Positions 50,158 to 64,000 of a stretch of 64,000 nucleotides of DNA are shown here, in pieces. The translations under genes and the position numbers were made by a program. Source of the DNA: Actinomadura craniellae (GTDB lineage: Bacteria; Actinomycetota; Actinomycetes; Streptosporangiales; Streptosporangiaceae). Numbering within the stretch: the first letter of the stretch is position 1; every line of letters starts with the position of its first letter. Location: positions 124,001-188,000 of the forward strand of contig NZ_QLYX01000012.1 in assembly GCF_003289645.1 (NCBI RefSeq), read 5' to 3'. The notes below the pieces were generated by a model. That model did no database searches. It was not told the origin of the DNA and worked only from the letters and a program-made list of their open reading frames with translations.

Positions 50158-51585
50158 ATGACCGTACCGATGACCGGGACCGCCACGGAGGTGGACCCGC
50201 GCGATCCGTTCCACCGGCTGGCACGGCTGCTGGACACCGGCACCGGTGTGCCGCTGCACCAGCCGGACGGCAGCGGCGTGCTGACGATGCGCGGGCTGGT
50301 GGGCGGGATCGAGGTCGTCGCCTACTGCACCGACGCGACCGTCATGGGCGGTGCCATGGGCGCCGCCGGCTGCCGCCGCATCGCGGCGGCGATCGACACG
50401 GCGGTGGCCGAGCGCCGCCCGGTCATCGGCGTCTGGCACTGCGGCGGCGCCCGGCTGGCCGAGGGAGTGGAGTCGCTCGAAGGCGTCGGGCAGGTGTTCG
50501 CCGCGATGGTCCGGGCCTCCGGCCGTGTGCCGCAGCTGTCGGTCGTGGTGGGCCCGGCGGCCGGCGGCGCGGCCTACGGCCCCGCGCTGACCGACCTGGT
50601 GATCATGGCTCCGGCCGGGCGGGTGTTCGTGACCGGTCCCGACGTGGTGCGCCGGGTCACCGGCGAACAGGTCGACATGGCCGAGCTCGGCGGAGCGGAG
50701 GCGCACGGGCGCCGGTCAGGCGTGGTGCACGTGGTGGCCGCGTCCGAGGACGACGCCTACCGCCGGGCCCGGAGCATCACCGGGCTGCTGGGCCGGCAGG
50801 GCTCGTTCGACCTGCGGGCGGTGGGCGGCGAGGACGACCTCCGCCGGTTGCTGCCCGACCGGCCCGCCCGCGCCTACGACGTCAAGCCGCTGGTGCGCCG
50901 GATCCTGGACCCGGGAGCGGACGGCGCCGCGGCGTTCGAGGAACTCCAGGCCAAGTGGGCGCCGAACGTCGTGGTGGGCCTCGGCCGGCTCGGCGGCCGC
51001 ACCGTGGGCGTGGTCGCGAACAACCCGCTGCGCAAGGGCGGCTGCCTCGACTCGCTGTCGGCGGAGAAGGCGGCCAGGTTCGTGCGCATGTGCGATGCGT
51101 TCGGCGTCCCGCTGCTGGTCGTCGTGGACGTTCCGGGTTACCTGCCGGGCGTGAGCCAGGAGTGGGAGGGCGTCGTGCGCCGCGGTGCGAAACTGCTGCA
51201 CGCGTTCGCCGAGGCCGTCGTGCCCCGGGTGACGCTGGTGACGCGCAAGTCCTACGGCGGCGCCTATGTCGCCATGAACTCGCGCTCGCTCGGCGCGACG
51301 GCCGTGCTCGCCTGGCCGGAGGCGGAGACCGCGGTGATGGGGGCCACCGCCGCGGTGGACATCCTGCATCGCAAGCGGCTCGCCGCCGCCCCCGAGGAGG
51401 AGCGCGAGGCGCTGCGGTCGCGGCTCGCCGAGGAGCACGAGCGCACCTCCGGCGGGCTGCGCCGGGCCGTGGCGATCGGGGCGGTCGACGAGGTCATCGA
51501 CCCGGCGCGGACCCGCCGCCGGCTCGCCGAAGCCTTCGCCGCCGCCCCGGCACTGCGGGGCAGTCACGGCAACATCCCGCTCTGA
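50158..51585 (+). CDS. Acyl-CoA carboxylase carboxyltransferase (beta-type) subunit
   Basis: A 475-residue carboxyltransferase of the PccB/AccD type, slightly short for the family. Segments include CGGARLAEGVESLEGVG, VVGPAAGGAAYGPAL, VANNPLRKGGCLD and SYGGAYVAMNS, the two crotonase-like halves. With a biotinylated alpha subunit it would make malonyl-CoA, methylmalonyl-CoA or a special extender unit for biosynthesis. No alpha or biotin carrier gene is nearby. ATG follows GGGGTGA; 88 bases after the SARP gene, so probably cotranscribed. Confidence 0.87.
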   Translation: MTVPMTGTATEVDPRDPFHRLARLLDTGTGVPLHQPDGSGVLTMRGLVGGIEVVAYCTDATVMGGAMGAAGCRRIAAAIDTAVAERRPVIGVWHCGGARLAEGVESLEGVGQVFAAMVRASGRVPQLSVVVGPAAGGAAYGPALTDLVIMAPAGRVFVTGPDVVRRVTGEQVDMAELGGAEAHGRRSGVVHVVAASEDDAYRRARSITGLLGRQGSFDLRAVGGEDDLRRLLPDRPARAYDVKPLVRRILDPGADGAAAFEELQAKWAPNVVVGLGRLGGRTVGVVANNPLRKGGCLDSLSAEKAARFVRMCDAFGVPLLVVVDVPGYLPGVSQEWEGVVRRGAKLLHAFAEAVVPRVTLVTRKSYGGAYVAMNSRSLGATAVLAWPEAETAVMGATAAVDILHRKRLAAAPEEEREALRSRLAEEHERTSGGLRRAVAIGAVDEVIDPARTRRRLAEAFAAAPALRGSHGNIPL

Positions 51586-52177: not shown

Positions 52178-53485
52178 ATGACCATGCGGGTGCTGTTCGT
52201 GACGGTGGCCGCCGGCTCGCATCTGGGGGCCCAGGTTCCGCTGGCCTGGGCGCTGCGGGCCGCGGGCCACCAGGTGTGCGTCGCCAGCCAGCCGGACCTG
52301 GAGGACGAGATCGTCGCCGCCGGGCTCGCCGCGGTGCCGGTCGGCCCGCCGCTCGACCAGGAGGGGTCGGTTGAGGAGCTGCGCCGGCGGCGGGAGGAGG
52401 AGGCGCGGCGGCTGGACGGCGAGCCGCCCGACGCGCAGGAGCTGATGCGCGTCGGCGACCTGAGCCCCGACCGGCTCGGCTACGACCGGCTGCACGGGAC
52501 CGTCACCGTGATGACGTCGGCGATCTTCCAGAACTTCTCCGCCAGGGAGACGGTCGATGACCTCGTGGGCTTCGCCCGGCACTGGCGGCCGGACCTGGTC
52601 GTCTGGGACACCATGCTGATGGCCGGCGCGGTCGCCGCGCGGGCCTGCGGCGCGGCCCACGCCCGGCTGCTGTACGGCCTCGACCTCGTCGGCCGGATGC
52701 GGGAGGAGTACCTGGCGGAGGTGGCCCGCAGGCCCGCGGACCTGCGCGAGGACCCGCTGGCCGAGTGGCTGGGCTGGACCATGGCCCGGTACGGCGGCGC
52801 GTTCGGCGAGGACCTGGTGGTCGGCCAGTGGACCATCGATCCGATCCCGTCGTCGATGCGGCTGGCGGTGGACCACCACTACGTGCCGATGGGGTACGTG
52901 CCCTTCAACGGCCGTGCCGTGATCCCGTCCTGGCTGCGCGAGCCGCCCGCGCGCCGCCGGGTGTGCCTGACCCTGGGAGTCTCGTTCCGCGAGGTGATGG
53001 GCGGCGACCAGGCCTCGATCGGGGCCCTGCTGGAGGCGCTGGCGGGCCTGGACGTCGAGGTGGTCGCGACGCTGGACGCCGACCAGCTCGCCACGGTGGA
53101 CCGGGTGCCCGGCAACGTGCGGGTGGTCGACTTCGTCGCGCTGAACGAGCTGCTGCCGAGCTGTTCGGCGATCGTCCACCAGGGCGGGTTCGGGACGGCG
53201 CAGACCGCGCTGGCCCACGGCGTCCCCCAGGTCATCGTCCCGAGTGACATGTGGGACGCGATCGCCAGGGCGCAGCGCGTGCAGCGCTCGGGCGCCGGCC
53301 TGTGCGTGTCCGACGACGGGCGGCCGCCCGCGGTCGCCGAGCTGCGGGACGCGCTGGTGCGCGTCCTGGCGGAGCCGTCGTTCGCCCGGGCCGCGGCCGG
53401 GATGCGCGCCGAGGTCCGCGGCGCCCCGGCCCCGGCCGACCTCGTCCCGCTGCTGGAGAAGCTGACCGCCCGGCACCGCGGCTGA
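52178..53485 (+). CDS. EryCIII/DesVII-like glycosyltransferase
   Basis: A 435-residue GT1-fold glycosyltransferase of the activator-dependent macrolide type (EryCIII, DesVII, SpnP). Characteristic segments are SHLGAQVPLAWALRAAGH, WRPDLVVWDTM, GQWTIDPIPSS and REPPARRRVCLTLGVS. The donor-binding loop is HQGGFGTAQTALAHGVPQ. It would transfer a TDP-deoxysugar to the product. Family members often need a P450-like activator encoded next door; none is here. It converges on rmlD with three bases between. Very similar to the protein at 62311. Confidence 0.88.
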   Translation: MTMRVLFVTVAAGSHLGAQVPLAWALRAAGHQVCVASQPDLEDEIVAAGLAAVPVGPPLDQEGSVEELRRRREEEARRLDGEPPDAQELMRVGDLSPDRLGYDRLHGTVTVMTSAIFQNFSARETVDDLVGFARHWRPDLVVWDTMLMAGAVAARACGAAHARLLYGLDLVGRMREEYLAEVARRPADLREDPLAEWLGWTMARYGGAFGEDLVVGQWTIDPIPSSMRLAVDHHYVPMGYVPFNGRAVIPSWLREPPARRRVCLTLGVSFREVMGGDQASIGALLEALAGLDVEVVATLDADQLATVDRVPGNVRVVDFVALNELLPSCSAIVHQGGFGTAQTALAHGVPQVIVPSDMWDAIARAQRVQRSGAGLCVSDDGRPPAVAELRDALVRVLAEPSFARAAAGMRAEVRGAPAPADLVPLLEKLTARHRG

Positions 53486-55877: not shown

Positions 55878-56858
55878 TCACTCGCCGAGCATGGCCACCG
55901 CGAGGCTCCGGTAGAAGGCCAGGACCCCGGGCTCCTTGGGGCTGAGGTGGCCACGCCCGGCGAACCGCGCCCCGGCGCACCGCTGGACGGCCTCCATGCC
56001 CGCCCGGTCCTCGTCGTTGACCACGGCCGCCCCCTCCTCGCTCTCCGCGCGCAGGGCCGCGCGGTCCGCGCCCTCGACCATCGCGGCCGGTAGGAGCGCC
56101 CCGCCGCGCACCTGGGTGCGGTCGGCGGTCAGCGGGATCAGGCTGATCCAGATGACCGAGTCCCCGAAGGCCGCGACGCTGCCGCAGGGGAAGACGCAGC
56201 AGTTGTACATGTTGGCCTTGTACTCGTCGTCGAGCGCGAGCACCACCGGTTCCATCGGCTCCCGGAACGGGCTGAGCAGGCGGGTCACCCAGCGCGAGTC
56301 GGCGCGCACCGCCATGTCGGCGCCGGGCGGCGTGAGGAGCGCCACGGTGTTCGGGTGCAGCCCCATGGCGTGGTAGTTCTCGTGCGCGTTCTGCACGGCC
56401 AGCTTCCAGTTGCAGCGCCATTCCTCCAGCCAGCCGCCGACCTGGACCATCTCGTCCAGCCGGTGGCCGGCCAGCTCCGCCCCGACCCGCGCCAGGTGCG
56501 GGGCCAGCGGTTCGGCGCCGGCGTCGAGGTTCACGAACACCAGCCCGTTCCACTGCTCGACCCGGGGTGCCGGCCGGCGGCGGCCGGGCGGCGTTCCGCG
56601 CAGCGCGCCGTCGTCGCCGCGGACGACCTCCACCGGCTCGCCCGCCACCGACAGCGCCACCCGGGACCCGGGGGCGGCGAGCTCGTCGGCGTGCGCCACC
56701 AGCACCCACGACCGCCCGAACACCCGGGCCCGTTCCAGCTCCCACAGCTCCGCCGAGACGAACGCCCTCGGCGGCAGGCTCAGCGCGGGCGCGCCGGGTT
56801 CGCGGTAACGTCCCAGCTCCGCCAGGAGCGCCGAGGTCTCCGCGGTCATGATCGTCAT
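55878..56858 (-). CDS. Ring-hydroxylating oxygenase paralogue lacking the Rieske domain
   Basis: A 326-residue relative of the Rieske oxygenase at 61109 that aligns along its length (FVSAELWELERARVFGRSWV; RTQVRGGALLPAAMVEGADR; FAGRGHLSPKEPGVL). About 50 residues are missing: between residues 84 and 105 only RGTPPGRRRPAPRVEQ remains where the paralogue has the CxH...CxxH cluster. The mononuclear iron histidines in NAHENYHAMGLHP are kept. It cannot receive electrons by its own Rieske centre, so it is either inactive, a partner subunit or an enzyme with another chemistry. The ATG overlaps the stop of the glycosyltransferase upstream (ATGA) and follows GAGGAA. Confidence 0.85.
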   Translation of the reverse strand: MTIMTAETSALLAELGRYREPGAPALSLPPRAFVSAELWELERARVFGRSWVLVAHADELAAPGSRVALSVAGEPVEVVRGDDGALRGTPPGRRRPAPRVEQWNGLVFVNLDAGAEPLAPHLARVGAELAGHRLDEMVQVGGWLEEWRCNWKLAVQNAHENYHAMGLHPNTVALLTPPGADMAVRADSRWVTRLLSPFREPMEPVVLALDDEYKANMYNCCVFPCGSVAAFGDSVIWISLIPLTADRTQVRGGALLPAAMVEGADRAALRAESEEGAAVVNDEDRAGMEAVQRCAGARFAGRGHLSPKEPGVLAFYRSLAVAMLGE

Positions 56859-58135
56859 GTTTCCTCGCGATGTGCGGCGGTCAGTTTCTCGATGGCCGGG
56901 ACGGCGTCGTTCGGCGGGTCCATGGCCAGGATCTCCTGCCGCAGCCGCCGCGCGTTCTCGGTGAAGGACGGCTCGGTCAGCACCCGCACGACCTTCTCGC
57001 GGAACAGTTCGGCGCTGAACTCGCGCAGCGGGATGGCCAGCAGCGTGCCCTGCTCCTCGTAGGCGTGGCCCATGGCCTCGGAGACCCACTCCCAGCCGGT
57101 GAGGACGACCTGCGGGACGCCGTGGAACTCCCCGGTGGCCTTGGTCTGGTAACCGGCGTGGTGGATCACGAGAGCGCAGGTGGGCAGCAGGTCGTTCATC
57201 GGTACGAAGTCCACGACGCGGACGTTCTCTCCGAGCTCGGGGAGGTGCTCGCGCTGCTCGGCGGCGATCGCCGCGACGACCTCGACGTCCAGTTCCGCCA
57301 GCGTCCGCAACATCGCGGCGAGCAGGGAGCCGAGGTCCCACAGCCGGTACTCGTCGGTGATGCTCACCCCGAGGGTGAGGCAGACGCGGGGCCTGGCCGG
57401 CGGTTCGCGCAGCCAGCGCGGGACGACGCTGCGGCCGTTGTAGGGGAGGTACCGCACCGGCACGGTCTCCAGGCCGAGGTCCTCGCGCTGGCTCGGCGGC
57501 CTGGTGTCGATCGTGAACTGGCCGGTCAGCATCGTCTCGTCGAACCGGCGCGCGGACCCCAGCCGCTCCAGCGTCCAGTCCAGCCACTCGGCGGTGGGGT
57601 CCTCGCGGTGCTCGGGCTCCTGCTCCAGCGCCCGCCGGAGGAAGTGCCGCCTGGTGGTGATCTGCATGGCCTGCTCGGGCCCGGAGACCAGGCGGGCGTG
57701 GGCCGCGCCCACGGCCACCGCGGCCACCGCCCCGGCGATGCACAGGGTCTCCCAGATCACCAGGTCCGGCCGCCAGGCGCGGGCCAGACCGACCAGCTCG
57801 TCGATCATTTCGTCGGAGTTCAGCGGCATGTTGAGCGCCGGGGTGATGATGGTCTCGTAGGCCAGGTGGTCTTCCCAGCTCTCCTCGGCCTCGTCGACCC
57901 CCGTCGTGTCGAGCGTGTTGTAGTAGGCGATCGCCTCGTGGTGGAACTCGCCGAGCAGCTCGTGCCACGGCGGGCACTCGATCGGCTCGGCGGCCAGCCC
58001 CGCCCGGGTGACGGTCTCCACCAGTTCGGGCTTGCAGGCCGTCCTGACCTCGTGGCCGGCGGTCCGCAGCGCCCAGGCCATCGGCACCAGCAGCTGGAAA
58101 TGGCTGCCTTCGAGCGAGGTGATCAGGATTCTCAT
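56855..58135 (-). CDS. EryCIII-like glycosyltransferase with altered donor loop
   Basis: A 426-residue glycosyltransferase of the EryCIII/DesVII group (SHFQLLVPMAWALRTAGHE, WRPDLVIWETL, GQFTIDTRPPS, REPPARPRVCLTLGVS). The donor-binding loop reads HHAGYQTKATGEFHGVPQ, whereas relatives in this cluster have HxGG/SGxGT; the glycine and GT are changed. It may use an unusual sugar donor or be weak. It is the middle gene of a leftward operon: methyltransferase, glycosyltransferase, dioxygenase, this gene, Rieske-less oxygenase. Confidence 0.86.
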   Translation of the reverse strand: MRILITSLEGSHFQLLVPMAWALRTAGHEVRTACKPELVETVTRAGLAAEPIECPPWHELLGEFHHEAIAYYNTLDTTGVDEAEESWEDHLAYETIITPALNMPLNSDEMIDELVGLARAWRPDLVIWETLCIAGAVAAVAVGAAHARLVSGPEQAMQITTRRHFLRRALEQEPEHREDPTAEWLDWTLERLGSARRFDETMLTGQFTIDTRPPSQREDLGLETVPVRYLPYNGRSVVPRWLREPPARPRVCLTLGVSITDEYRLWDLGSLLAAMLRTLAELDVEVVAAIAAEQREHLPELGENVRVVDFVPMNDLLPTCALVIHHAGYQTKATGEFHGVPQVVLTGWEWVSEAMGHAYEEQGTLLAIPLREFSAELFREKVVRVLTEPSFTENARRLRQEILAMDPPNDAVPAIEKLTAAHREET

Positions 58136-58142
58136 CCTGACC

Positions 58143-58946
58143 TCAGGCCGGGCGGATGAGCGGGAACTTCTCGCCCGCGACCGGCTCTCCCGGCCGCAGG
58201 TGCGCGACGGGATGGTCCTGGACCCCCGGGCGGTAGGTGGCGTCGGCGTCCATGTAGACGACGCCGTAGGCCAGGCGCCGTTCGGAGTCGGTGTTGACCC
58301 CGGCCAGGTGGACGGTGCGGAAGTGGTGGAAGATGACGTCGCCCGCCCGGGCCGGGACGGTGACCCGCGGCGCGTACGGGAAGTCCGGCCAGACCTCCTC
58401 CATGGGCCGGTAGTGCTCGAAGCCCGCCAGGTGCACCTGCCGCTCGGTCTCCGGGCGCAGGTGCGAGCCGGGAACGTAGATGAGGCTGCCGCGGTCCGCC
58501 GGGACGTCGACCAGCGGGGTCCAGGCCGTCAGCGTCCGGGACAGGCCCGCCAGCGGGAGGCCCGGCTCGTCGTCGTGGATGACGGTCGGCAGGTGCACGT
58601 GCGGGTCCTTCTTCAGCACGTCGGTGCCGTAGAGGCGCAGCGGCCCGCCGGAGAGCCGCTCGGCGATCTCCGTGATCACCGGGTGCAGGGCGAGCCGGCG
58701 CAGGTCCGGGTGCTTGAGCCAGGCCGCCTCGACGTAGTGGACCTGGGTCTCCTCCGCCGAGGCGCCCCAGATCTCCGGGCCCTCCTTGTCCAGCAGTTCC
58801 TCCGCGGCCGCCCGGAAGGTCGCCACCTCCTCCGGGGAGAGGACCTGGGGGAGGTGGACGAACCCCCGGTCGTGGTAACTGCGGACGGTCTCGTCGGTCA
58901 GGGATTCGGCCGTGGTCGGGTCGCCGAGGGCCACCATGTCGCTCAT
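58143..58946 (-). CDS. Phytanoyl-CoA dioxygenase (PhyH)-like Fe(II)/2-oxoglutarate enzyme
   Basis: A 267-residue Fe(II)/2-oxoglutarate oxygenase. The metal triad is likely HDD in TVIHDDEPG plus the distal histidine in TVHLAGVN, and the arginine in ERRLAYGV binds 2-oxoglutarate. GSLIYVPGSHL is typical of PhyH proteins. In antibiotic clusters (for example SnoK of nogalamycin) relatives make C-C bonds or epimerise sugars rather than hydroxylate fatty acids. It lies seven bases before the glycosyltransferase at 58135. ATG at 58946; one three codons later (58937) is possible. Confidence 0.84.
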   Translation of the reverse strand: MSDMVALGDPTTAESLTDETVRSYHDRGFVHLPQVLSPEEVATFRAAAEELLDKEGPEIWGASAEETQVHYVEAAWLKHPDLRRLALHPVITEIAERLSGGPLRLYGTDVLKKDPHVHLPTVIHDDEPGLPLAGLSRTLTAWTPLVDVPADRGSLIYVPGSHLRPETERQVHLAGFEHYRPMEEVWPDFPYAPRVTVPARAGDVIFHHFRTVHLAGVNTDSERRLAYGVVYMDADATYRPGVQDHPVAHLRPGEPVAGEKFPLIRPA

Positions 58947-59013: not shown

Positions 59014-60162
59014 TCAGCGGGCCAGGCCGGCCAGCCGGGCCACCAGGTCGGCCGGGGCCGGCATCGACAGCAGCTCGTCGCGCGCCTGCCGGGCCGCGTC
59101 CCGCAGCGCCTCGTCCTTGAGCAGGGTCTGGCATTCGGTGACCCCCACCGACTCGGGCTCGGAGACGATCCCGATGCCGCGGCGGGGTAGCAGGTCACCG
59201 CCGGTCTGCTGGTAGGAGCCGCGCGGCAGCACGCACTGCGGTATGCCGGCGGCCACCGCGGTCATCGTCGTCCCGCTGCCGCCGTGGTGGATGACGGCCG
59301 AGCAGGTCTCCAGCAGGACGTCGAGCGGGGCCCACTCCACGATGCGGACGTTGGGCGGCAGTTCGCCCAGCAGCGCGGCGTCGCCGCCGCCGAGTGTGAC
59401 CGCGAACTCCGCGTCCACCCCGCCGGCCGCCGCCAGCAGCGGGGCCAGCATCGCGATGCCGCCCCACTGGGCCTCGATGGTGCCGAGGGTGACCGCGATC
59501 CGCGGCTTCTCGGCCGGCCGCAGCAGCCAGTCGGGCAGGACGGCCCCGCCGTTGTAGGGCACGTACCGCATCGGCCAGGCGCCGGGCGAGCGCCGCTGCT
59601 CGGGCAGCAGCGCCTGGAAGCTGGGCGGGAACATCGTGATCTGCGCCCGCGCCCGCGGCTCGCCGGTGACGCCGTGCCGGTCGTAGTGCGCGGCCATGGC
59701 GGCGCGGACCGTCTCGGCGAGCCGCGCGCCGCTGTCGTAGGAGCCGAGCCTGAGCTCGACGTGCGGCAGGTTCAGCGCGGCCGCGACGAGCGGCCCCGCC
59801 CCCTGGAGCGGCGGGGAGATGACCAGGTCGGGAGACCAGGACCGGGCCGCCGCGAGCGTGCCGTCGACCATGACCCCCGAGACCCGGCCGAACAGCTTGG
59901 CCAGGGCGAGGTCGTCGGGGTCGTCGGCGAACATCGGGTTGGCGGCATCGGCCTCGCCGTCCGCCTCGTCGGGCATGTAGACCTTCAGGTAGTCCAGCCC
60001 GGGCGTGACGTCCATGACGTCCAGCCCGGCGTCCGAGACGGCCAGGCTTAGCCCGCCCGTCGCGTAGCGGACCTCGTGCCCCGCCGCGCGGAGCGCCTGT
60101 GCCAGCGGCACGGTCGGAAAGAGATGGCCGAGCCCGGGAGAGGTGACGAACAGTGCACGCAT
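59014..60162 (-). CDS. GT1-type glycosyltransferase (CalG/UGT-like)
   Basis: A 382-residue glycosyltransferase, shorter and more distant than the three EryCIII-like ones. It begins RALFVTSPGLGHLFPTVPLAQALRAAGHE and has RYVPYNGGAVLPDWL and the canonical donor loop HHGGSGTTMTAVAAGIPQ. Such enzymes need no P450-like activator. Cluster context suggests attachment of a deoxysugar to the aglycone. ATG at 60162 follows GGTGGGG. It follows the methyltransferase by 92 bases. Confidence 0.87.
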   Translation of the reverse strand: MRALFVTSPGLGHLFPTVPLAQALRAAGHEVRYATGGLSLAVSDAGLDVMDVTPGLDYLKVYMPDEADGEADAANPMFADDPDDLALAKLFGRVSGVMVDGTLAAARSWSPDLVISPPLQGAGPLVAAALNLPHVELRLGSYDSGARLAETVRAAMAAHYDRHGVTGEPRARAQITMFPPSFQALLPEQRRSPGAWPMRYVPYNGGAVLPDWLLRPAEKPRIAVTLGTIEAQWGGIAMLAPLLAAAGGVDAEFAVTLGGGDAALLGELPPNVRIVEWAPLDVLLETCSAVIHHGGSGTTMTAVAAGIPQCVLPRGSYQQTGGDLLPRRGIGIVSEPESVGVTECQTLLKDEALRDAARQARDELLSMPAPADLVARLAGLAR

Positions 60163-61108: not shown

Positions 61109-62257
61109 ATGACCGCTGCGGACACTTCGGCGCTGCTGGACGAGCTGGGGGACTACCTGCGGGAGGACGCGCCGGCGCTGAGCCTGCCGCCGGAGGCGTT
61201 CGTGTCGCCGGAGCTGTGGGAGCTGGAGCGGACGCGGGTGTTCGGGCGGTCGTGGGTGCTGGTGGCGCACGCCGACGAGCTGGCCGAGCCGGGCTCGTAC
61301 GTGGCCCTGTCGGTGGCCGGTGAACCGGTGGTGGTGACCCGGGACCGCGACGGCGAGCTGCACGCGCTGTCCCCGATCTGCCGGCACCGGATGATGCCGG
61401 TGGTGGAGGAGGGGTCCGGCCGCGCCGACTCGTTCACCTGCCCGTACCACCTGTGGCGGTACGGGCTGGACGGGCGGCTGATCGGGGCCACGTTCATGAA
61501 GGGCAACCCCGACTTCGACCCGAAGACCTGCCGTCTGCCGCGGTTCGCGGTGGCGCAGTGGCAGGGGTTCGTGCATGTCAACCTGGATGCCGGCGCCGAG
61601 CCGCTGGCTCCGCACCTGGCGCGGGTCGGCGAGGACCTGGCCAACTACCGGCTGGACGAGATGGTGCAGGTCGGCGGCTGGGTCGAGGAGTGGAACTGCA
61701 ACTGGAAGGTCGCCGTCGAGAACGCCCACGAGAACTACCACGTCCTGGGCTTCCACCCGGAGACCCTGCAACCGTCCACCCCCGGCGGGGCCGAGACGTC
61801 GGTGCGGGCCGACTCGCCCTGGGCGAACATCATGCGCGTCCGCTACACCGAGCCCCTGGAGGCGGCGATCCTGCCGCTCACCGAGGAGGAGAAGGCGCAT
61901 CTGTACGCCTTCTTCGTCTTCCCGTCCGGCAGCCTCGCGGCCTCCGGTGAGATGGTGGTCTGGCTCAGCCTCATCCCGCAGTCCATCGACCGCACCCAGG
62001 TGCGCGGCGGCGTGCTCATGCCCGCCGCGCTGATCGAGGGCGCCGATCGGGACACGATCCGCAAGGAGAGCGAGGGCTACGCCGCCATGATCAACGCCGA
62101 GGACCGGCACGGGCTGGAGGCCGTGCAGCGCTCGGTGGGCTCGCGGTTCGCCGGCCGCGGCCACCTCAGCCCCAAGGAGCCGGGCGTGCTGCTCTTCTAC
62201 CAGAACCTGGCGCGGGCCCTGCTGCGCGAGGACGGGGCGTGGCCCGGCCAGCTCTGA
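61109..62257 (+). CDS. Rieske-type ring-hydroxylating oxygenase, alpha subunit
   Basis: A 382-residue Rieske non-heme iron oxygenase. The [2Fe-2S] cluster ligands are C91, H93 and C111, H114 (CRH, then CPYH). The mononuclear iron histidines are in NAHENYHVLGFHP, with glutamate in place of the usual bridging aspartate. It would hydroxylate or otherwise oxidise the scaffold, or a sugar, using an external reductase not found here. ATG at 61109 follows GAGGGGA. It is divergent from the methyltransferase operon, and its paralogue at 55878 lacks the cluster. Confidence 0.9.
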   Translation: MTAADTSALLDELGDYLREDAPALSLPPEAFVSPELWELERTRVFGRSWVLVAHADELAEPGSYVALSVAGEPVVVTRDRDGELHALSPICRHRMMPVVEEGSGRADSFTCPYHLWRYGLDGRLIGATFMKGNPDFDPKTCRLPRFAVAQWQGFVHVNLDAGAEPLAPHLARVGEDLANYRLDEMVQVGGWVEEWNCNWKVAVENAHENYHVLGFHPETLQPSTPGGAETSVRADSPWANIMRVRYTEPLEAAILPLTEEEKAHLYAFFVFPSGSLAASGEMVVWLSLIPQSIDRTQVRGGVLMPAALIEGADRDTIRKESEGYAAMINAEDRHGLEAVQRSVGSRFAGRGHLSPKEPGVLLFYQNLARALLREDGAWPGQL

Positions 62258-62310: not shown

Positions 62311-63588
62311 TCAGCGGTACTCGGCCGTCAGCCTCTCCAGCACCGGGACGAGCTCGCGCGGCGACGGGGTGCCGAGCATTTCGGCGCGCACCCGCGCCGC
62401 GTTCCGGGCGAAGGACGGCTCCTCCAGGACGCGCGTCACCATGGTCCGCAGCCGGTCGGCCGTCAGCTCCTCCGGCTCGCAGCACAACGCGATCCCCGAG
62501 TCCCGGGCCAGGTCCGCCCGCGGCCCGTTGCACCACATCCTGGTCGGCACGATGACCTGCGGAACCCCGTGCGCCAGGGCGGTCATGAACGTGCCGGAAC
62601 CGCTGTGATGGATGATCGCCGAGCAGCTCGGCAGGAGCAGGTCGAGGGGGACGAAGTCGACCGCGCGCACGTTGTCCGGGAGCCCGCGCGCCGCGTCGAG
62701 CTGCTCGGCGTTCAGGGTCGCCACCACCTCGACGTCCAGGTCGGCGACGGCCTCCAGCAACTCGTTGACCGAGGCCCGGTCACCGCCGGCGACCTCGCGG
62801 AACGAGACGCCCAGGGTGAGGCAGACCCGGCGCCGCCCGGGCGCCTCGCGCAGCCAGCCGGGGACCGTGGTCCGGCCGTTGTGCGGGACGTACCGGACCG
62901 GCAGGTACGGGTGCCGCACCGGCAGCCGCAGCGAGGACGGCACGGGGTCGATGGTCCACTGGCCGACCACCATGTCCTCGGTGAACTCCAGGCCGTACCG
63001 GTCGAGCGCGCGGCCCAGCCACTCCTCCAGCGGGTCGTCGCGCAGCTCCGGCGGCAGCCGGTCCAGCCGCCCCCGGTAGTGCTCGCGCATCAGGCCGACC
63101 AGGTCGAGGCCGAACATCAGCCGCGCATGCGCCGCGCCGCAGGCCCGCGCGGCCACCGGCCCGGCGAAGGTCATCGTGTCCCAGACCACCAGGTCCGGAC
63201 GCCAGCGCCGGGCGAAGTCGACCAGCTCGTCGATCATCGCGTCCGGGATCGTGTTCTGGTACACCATCGGCGTCCACGCGGCGAAGAGGGCCTGGAGATG
63301 GTCGTGCGGCGGCGGGTCGAGGCCGATCCGGCCGGGGTCCAGGACGCCGAGCCAGGACTGGTCCCGGATCTCCTCGATCTCGTCGCCGTCGTCCGGGTTC
63401 ATCTTGGCGCCCACGTCGAGCGTCTCGCCGACCGGCACCGCGGTGAGGCCGGCGCGCGTGATGTCGTCCACGACGTCCGGCTGGGCGGCGACGCACACCT
63501 CGTGCCCGGCGCTGCGCAGCGCCCACGCCAACGGGACCTGCGTGTTGACGTGGGTGCTCGCGGCGAAGGGCTGGAACAGGACCCGCAT
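62311..63588 (-). CDS. EryCIII/DesVII-like glycosyltransferase
   Basis: A 425-residue glycosyltransferase very similar to the one at 52178: VPLAWALRSAGHEVCVAAQPD, WRPDLVVWDTM, GQWTIDPVPSSLRL, REAPGRRRVCLTLGVSFREV. The donor loop is HHSGSGTFMTALAHGVPQ. The two probably arose by duplication and may add different deoxysugars. ATG at 63588. It is four bases after the stop of the SDR upstream on the same strand, so both are in one operon coming from beyond the right edge. Confidence 0.88.
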   Translation of the reverse strand: MRVLFQPFAASTHVNTQVPLAWALRSAGHEVCVAAQPDVVDDITRAGLTAVPVGETLDVGAKMNPDDGDEIEEIRDQSWLGVLDPGRIGLDPPPHDHLQALFAAWTPMVYQNTIPDAMIDELVDFARRWRPDLVVWDTMTFAGPVAARACGAAHARLMFGLDLVGLMREHYRGRLDRLPPELRDDPLEEWLGRALDRYGLEFTEDMVVGQWTIDPVPSSLRLPVRHPYLPVRYVPHNGRTTVPGWLREAPGRRRVCLTLGVSFREVAGGDRASVNELLEAVADLDVEVVATLNAEQLDAARGLPDNVRAVDFVPLDLLLPSCSAIIHHSGSGTFMTALAHGVPQVIVPTRMWCNGPRADLARDSGIALCCEPEELTADRLRTMVTRVLEEPSFARNAARVRAEMLGTPSPRELVPVLERLTAEYR

Positions 63589-63592
63589 CGGC

Positions 63593-64000
63593 TCAGGTGA
63601 GGGACAGCGCGCCGTCGACCGGCAGCACCATCCCGTTGGCGTAGGCGGCCTCCGGGCTCGTCAGCTGCACGATCCACCAGGCGACCTCTTCGGGGGTGCC
63701 GACGCGCCCGGCCGGCGCCTGGGTGCTGATCTGCTGGAGGAAGCCCGCGTACTGCTCCGGCGTCATGCCCATCTGGGGGCCCGAGGCGGTGTCGATGACG
63801 CCGGGGGCGATGCCCACCACCCTGATGCCGCGCGGCCCCAGCTCGACGGCCCAGGTCCGGGTGAGGAAGTCGAGCGCGACCTTCGCGGCGCCGTAGAGGC
63901 TGTTGTTGGGCCAGGACCGCAGGCCGAGCGAGCCGGCCGTGCTGAGGTTCACCACGGTCCCGCCGGTGGCCTCCAGCGGGTCCAGCGCGCGTTGCGTCAG
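63593..64000 (-). CDS. Short-chain dehydrogenase/reductase (partial, 5' end outside)
   Basis: The C-terminal 135 residues of an SDR that continues past the window edge. [11 protein letters not shown] gives the catalytic serine, LYGAAK the Tyr/Lys pair and GIAPGVIDT the loop after strand 6, ending with [15 protein letters not shown]. The nucleotide-binding half is not visible. It is cotranscribed with the glycosyltransferase at 62311; a sugar or scaffold ketoreduction is possible. Confidence 0.85.

Follow-up and report, generated by a model that had tools for sequence, protein, structure and literature searches.

Gene content and setting of the locus

The glycosyltransferase gene h50 occupies positions 56855-58135 on the minus strand of the window, the whole 64,000-nucleotide stretch of Actinomadura craniellae DNA analysed here, and encodes a protein of 426 residues from an ATG start. 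Both the N- and C-terminal EryCIII-like Pfam domains are present, and the protein scores 541.6 bits against TIGR04516 (activator-dependent glycosyltransferase; curated cut-off 440). h50 is a member of this activator-dependent GT1/EryCIII family, for which a glycine at the position of EryCIII 346 and the aspartate of the D/E-Q sugar motif are usual but not universal and are not counted as defining. The predicted model (pLDDT 84.6) adopts the GT-B fold, with the elaiophylin glycosyltransferase (PDB 7yp3-7yp6; canonical HHGGFGS loop) as the closest fold match at Z 45.7, followed by EryCIII (Z 43.6), SpnP (Z 42.3), and VinC (Z 41.1). The donor-phosphate loop HHAGYQTKAT (residues 325-334; 57134-57163, minus strand) is placed at the N-terminus of a canonical helix predicted for residues 329-337. 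The earlier note had singled out this loop against three relatives in the window, and the loop is real, as are the forms carried by the three: HQGGFGT in the paralogous activator-dependent glycosyltransferase h45 (52178-53485, plus strand), HHSGSGT in its fellow paralogue h55 (62311-63588, minus strand), and HHGGSGT in the SnogD-like h52 (59014-60162, minus strand; SnogD 4amb, E 1.5e-143).

h50 lies between an oxygenase gene and a SnoK-like gene. Downstream, its stop codon overlaps the start of the oxygenase gene h49 (55878-56858, minus strand; 326 residues) in an ATGA at 56855-56858 (minus strand). Upstream, a junction of seven bases (58136-58142) separates it from h51 (58143-58946, minus strand), a SnoK-like non-heme iron enzyme of the PhyH type (SnoK 5epa, E 2.2e-106). 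An intact Rieske oxygenase paralogue of h49, h54, lies at 61109-62257 on the plus strand and has both Rieske and Ring_hydroxyl_A domains. The cluster runs from position 50158 to the window's end at 64000, continues in two further loci (L009 and L010), and encodes eight glycosyltransferases. Its type II ketosynthase is closest, among solved structures, to that of actinorhodin, and it also encodes relatives of nitrososynthase and AknOx and a TcaB9-type sugar C-methyltransferase. In nogalamycin biosynthesis, SnoK is reported to form the sugar-to-ring C-C bond (PMC5321127) and SnogD to attach the aminosugar (PMC4330554); SnogD (PDB 4amb) is a GT-B enzyme of a related pathway, at 30-32% identity to h50, and its window counterpart h52, two genes upstream of h50, reaches 221 bits against the TIGR04516 cut-off of 440. 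Judged from this gene content, the product is likely an anthracycline resembling nogalamycin whose chain bears a nitrosugar. We presume it to be of the arugomycin, viriplanin, decilorubicin or keyicin type, and we assume that h54 may correspond to SnoT of nogalamycin. Within the open-licence literature we found no paper on SnoT and none on this cluster, and the consulted passages of the genome paper on Kitasatospora sp. SUK 42, which carries a related cluster, make no mention of an anthracycline cluster.

Donor-site residues of the YQTK clade

With the h50 protein as query, a pattern scan of GTDB genomes recovered three orthologues at 69-70% identity, in Kitasatospora sp. SUK 42, Actinomadura sp. 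KC345, and Streptomyces sp. C10-9-1. Further orthologues came from scanning the window's family (341 genomes), its class (394), and Streptomyces (392), and duplicates were removed on identical matches (KC345 = G271; C10-9-1 = G562). The YQTK loop is thereby found in 12 genomes of two families (the window, SUK42, KC345, G562, G704, G828, G877, G987, G326, G778, G908, and G317), the other 11 proteins being 53-71% identical to h50. All 12 form a single clade with support of 100/100, and the change therefore arose once. The related clusters were located by means of the h50 gene, so that their containing it is no independent evidence of its importance. The reading frame is open in 11 of the 12. In the twelfth, from G987 (L098; G987:C4, about 179109-180422), the frame seems to shift near codon 17, through either sequencing error or genuine damage.

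Position by position, the clade was compared with 65 other family members, six window paralogues among them, in an alignment of 77 sequences from which duplicate or fragmentary loci (L014, L052, L059) and matches spanning fewer than 380 residues were left out. Residues 328-332 read GYQTK in all 12 proteins, and the ten-residue loop, which opens with HH[A/G]GYQTK throughout, is invariant except for its first A/G position (Gly in eight, Ala in four) and one A/L. Position 330 (57146-57148, minus strand), where Gln replaces the pyrophosphate-binding Gly, is Gln throughout the clade, compared with Gly in 62 and Lys in three of the 65 others. Just beyond the loop that the earlier note named, and directly after one extra residue relative to the sister proteins, Val351 (57083-57085, minus strand) stands where the D/E-Q sugar-binding motif normally has its Asp; it too is fixed in 12 of 12, with Asp in 60 of the 65 others. 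Tyr329, Lys332, and Glu349 are likewise invariant in the clade, down to 53% identity. A second, less biased draw by family profile (28 new rows from 23 loci, after six loci already used were dropped) gave Gly in 25, Ala in two, and Trp in one at position 330, and Asp in 25 at position 351. Paralogues in the related clusters (n = 34) keep Gly at 330 in 33 cases and are more varied at 351 (Asp 17, Cys 9, Glu 7, Tyr 1). Gln at position 330 is absent outside the clade in each of these three sets (0/65, 0/28, and 0/34), which, together with the near-identity of the loop in all 12 members, amounts to more than chance.

The remainder of the loop has an older history. Sister transferases with 50-53% identity to h50 (L066-L068, at 50-52%, and L017) carry a GGVGT or GGFGT loop and Asp at 351, and L066-L068, which are of the GGVGT form, already contain TKATAELH, so that the K, A, T, and E look inherited. 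As such, the change in the donor-phosphate loop is real and selected, but to call it rewritten, as had been done, is too strong, because the first Ala is not fixed and KATAELH pre-exists in canonical sisters. What is specific to the clade, among the strongly conserved positions of the donor site, is the replacement of Gly330 by Gln and of Asp351 by Val. Position 310, where EryCIII has its base-stacking Phe, is His, Arg, or Tyr in seven of the 12; we had considered a Phe310 to His change as a sign of decay and dropped it, since Phe occupies this position in just 13 of the 28 second-draw sequences. Elsewhere in the G326 cluster, another glycosyltransferase (G326:C27, about 800843-802129; L044/L045) has the loop HQSDVWT, still further from the usual form, and keeps its sugar-motif Asp.

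A comparison with two characterized transferases relates these positions to function. EryCIII (PDB 2yjn, solved with EryCII), the top sequence match to h50 among solved structures (E 3.4e-98), is described as using H342, G344, G346, S347, and T350 for phosphate and sugar and F326 for the base, and its D366 is aligned with the acceptor-contacting Asp of OleD (PMC3391682). Its H33, H342, G344, S347, T350, and G275 (PMC3391682) correspond to His12, His326, Gly328, Thr331, Thr334, and Gly256 of h50, and F326 to Phe310, which the window protein keeps; in contrast, one loop glycine (G346) and the aspartate (D366) are altered, to Gln330 and Val351. The catalytic His and the pyrophosphate motif His-x-Gly...Thr/Ser (His12, His326, Gly328, Thr331) are therefore retained. 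His12, at the catalytic-base position (58100-58102, minus strand; SpnP His13, EryCIII His33), is present in all 11 readable clade members, the frameshifted G987 copy being the twelfth. SpnP, the spinosyn forosaminyltransferase (PDB 4ldp, 4lei), shares family and fold with h50 at about 36-41% identity, and its loop, HHGSTTT, also lacks the usual glycines, with Thr335 at the position of Gln330 and Ser at the neighbouring one. A review describes N230 and T335 as hydrogen-bonding partners of TDP, D356-E357 as the D/E-Q sugar motif, and H13 as the base (PMC10054333); we take these numbers to be those of SpnP from the identities of the residues. N230 and H13 correspond to Asn233 and His12 of h50, both kept. 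Thus, a relative already binds TDP with the help of a polar residue that stands where this Gly would be. SpnP, however, keeps Asp356, the counterpart of Val351, and the loss of this Asp in h50 points to altered reading of the sugar or the acceptor.

Constraint on the coding sequence is evident from substitution rates. Nei-Gojobori omega for h50 is 0.13-0.22 over six close orthologue pairs, no higher than the 0.16-0.33 of h45, h51, h52, and h55 on those pairs. The Rieske-less gene gives 0.20-0.38 over five pairs. The h54 rows involving G562, whose own h54 lies beyond the fetched stretch, pair h54 with that genome's Rieske-less gene and are disregarded. Two pairs that include the window give h50 values of 0.36 and 0.42, at higher synonymous divergence. 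h50 is under purifying selection, like its paralogues.

Activator and oxygenase neighbours

EryCIII, the erythromycin desosaminyltransferase, has a known activator partner, EryCII, whereas h50 has none adjacent to it. Directly upstream of the YQTK glycosyltransferase, 10 of the 12 genomes carry a P450-derived, activator-like gene with an open frame of 350-503 codons (for example L011:8979-9992 and L012:3116-4207), which in nine of them sits between the SnoK-like gene and the transferase; a pattern check of the 10 found no heme-Cys motif. The KC345 and SUK42 copies score 338.5 and 232.4 on the activator profile TIGR04515, below its cut-off of 343, but both outscore every ordinary P450 of the window genome (best 187). 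The two genomes in which no activator adjoins the transferase are the window and G326, where the gap between the SnoK-like gene and the transferase is seven bases and about 16 bases, respectively. The two transferases fall in different subclades, so this absence probably arose twice. The window genome has one activator over the cut-off (469 bits), which lies in the same cluster at C4:205732-206997, past the window's right edge, with the over-cut-off match at C4:205756-206988.

On the other side of h50, the neighbour h49 is Rieske-less, as the earlier note held: it matches the Ring_hydroxyl_A catalytic domain (PF00848, E 1e-19), gives no match to PF00355 (Rieske), lacks the CxH...CxxH segment, and is short of about 49-50 residues, the cluster-binding segment, relative to its paralogue h54. 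The intact paralogues all share its His163, His168, and Asp284, which we take to be the His/His/Asp ligands of the mononuclear iron. The predicted model of h49 is poor (pLDDT 61) and was left out of the analysis. Among the 12 carriers of the YQTK loop, seven have a Rieske-less oxygenase beside the transferase (the window, SUK42, G562, G704, G828, G877, and G987; outside the window, L011, L013, L093, L094, L096, and L098), one (G326) has an intact Rieske oxygenase, one (KC345) has an adjoining oxygenase whose middle, over the Rieske region, is lost at a contig end, and three (G778, G908, and G317) have no oxygenase there. In KC345 (G271 contigs C168 and C182; L105 and L103), both oxygenase paralogues break at nearly the same residue, as if a near-identical shared stretch had collapsed in assembly. 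The overlap between the transferase stop and the oxygenase start is genuine and is conserved with the oxygenase as ATGA in eight of the 12, namely the seven Rieske-less carriers and KC345; G326 has TGATG. A search of 391 Streptomycetales genomes with the Rieske-less protein gave matches at E 1e-60 in two, both already known carriers, and we found no publication on Rieske-less oxygenases of this kind in the open-licence literature.

Phylogeny helps to order the two alterations. In a tree of the catalytic domain, the seven Rieske-less genes join the oxygenase of G326 and the fragment from KC345 in one clade (100/100) apart from the intact h54 genes, but a grouping of all intact oxygenases together is only weakly disfavoured (p-AU 0.09). 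A tree of full-length oxygenases instead groups G326 with the intact paralogues. We prefer the catalytic-domain tree because the full-length grouping is probably driven by columns present only in Rieske-bearing rows. Since in G326 the transferase with the changed loop adjoins a same-lineage oxygenase whose Rieske domain is intact, the neighbour's Rieske loss would be later than the loop change; the h49-lineage neighbour most likely once had a Rieske domain and lost it after the transferase had changed. The same observation led us to reject loop change and Rieske loss as one coupled event. The earlier interpretation is supported in part: the overlap is conserved and both alterations do occur together in seven of the 12 genomes, but the idea that they are one unit is not supported, the loop being found with an intact Rieske oxygenase in G326 and with no adjoining oxygenase in G778, G908, and G317. 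In most carriers the two altered genes are translated together, yet each was altered on its own.

A working or a lost donor site

Taken together, these comparisons make it on balance probable that h50 is an active enzyme, a TDP-deoxysugar glycosyltransferase that depends on an activator, serves a nogalamycin-like pathway to a nitrosugar-bearing anthracycline, and had its donor site remodelled a single time, in an ancestor of the clade. We counted for this reading the single origin, the two fixed substitutions, the retained core residues (His12, His326, Gly328, Thr331, Thr334, Asn233, and Gly256), purifying selection, and the adjacent activator in most orthologues. Against it stand the alteration of two donor-recognition residues at once, the want of an adjacent activator in the window and in G326 and the sub-threshold activator scores in SUK42 and KC345, the His, Arg, or Tyr at position 310 in seven of 12, and the G987 frameshift. 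By analogy with Thr in SpnP, Gln330 may take over a hydrogen bond to TDP, and the loss of Asp351 would fit a donor sugar that lacks a group, or bears a nonpolar one, at the position normally read by Asp. The window enzyme would have to borrow the cluster's one remaining activator or work without one, and the Rieske-less h49 would be translated together with h50, having been altered later.

The working, donor-specialised enzyme is favoured over a non-catalytic partner, an idea the earlier note had raised and which we consider unlikely. A protein that had lost donor binding and served another glycosyltransferase, or the oxygenase, as a structural or allosteric subunit could account for the fixation of both substitutions in all 12 members, for the window copy without an adjoining activator, and for the overlap with a Rieske-less oxygenase conserved in seven to eight genomes. 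Yet the clade, although old enough to have lost them, preserves the catalytic His and the remaining phosphate and TDP residues, purifying selection acts on the gene, an activator adjoins it in 10 of 12 genomes, three of 12 have no adjoining oxygenase to partner, and SpnP, whose loop Thr is reported to bind TDP (PMC10054333), is, with its Thr and Ser, described as the forosamine transferase of spinosad (PMC9854174). The earlier note looked to orthologues with the same loop and ordinary transferase activity as evidence against its proposal; of these two elements, the same-loop orthologues exist. It is doubtful, if a little easier to entertain, that h50 is an ordinary active transferase using an ordinary pathway donor, its loop change being a neutral variant that chance fixed in a single ancestor. 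The Gly position is indeed Lys, Ala, Thr, or Trp in some family members and the origin is single; however, the invariance of Tyr329, Gln330, Lys332, Glu349, and Val351 across the clade suggests constraint, and the other members mostly retain Gly (62 of 65 and 25 of 28). A decaying gene or a sequencing artefact, for which the apparent frameshift in G987 might speak, is highly improbable and is rejected for the clade, given that 12 genomes sequenced separately share the loop, that the frame is open in 11 of them, and that omega is 0.13-0.22.

In Rieske oxygenase trimers, electrons already move from one subunit to another. It is a long shot, well short of the preceding claim of a working transferase, that h50 and h49 constitute one sugar-tailoring station in which an unusual donor would be selected by Gln330 and Val351 and h49, its iron site retained but its own electron relay gone, would act in a mixed oligomer with h54, drawing electrons from the Rieske cluster of the neighbouring subunit.

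Gly at this point in the loop is often taken to mark a functional donor site, and the clade urges caution, in that the loop alone is no ground for calling such transferases dead. Twelve members with Gln for Gly and without the sugar-reading Asp provide a natural test of the roles of loop and Asp in donor choice for antibiotic glycosylation. Likewise, the conserved Rieske-less oxygenase and its intact G326 relative at the same place offer a before-and-after comparison.
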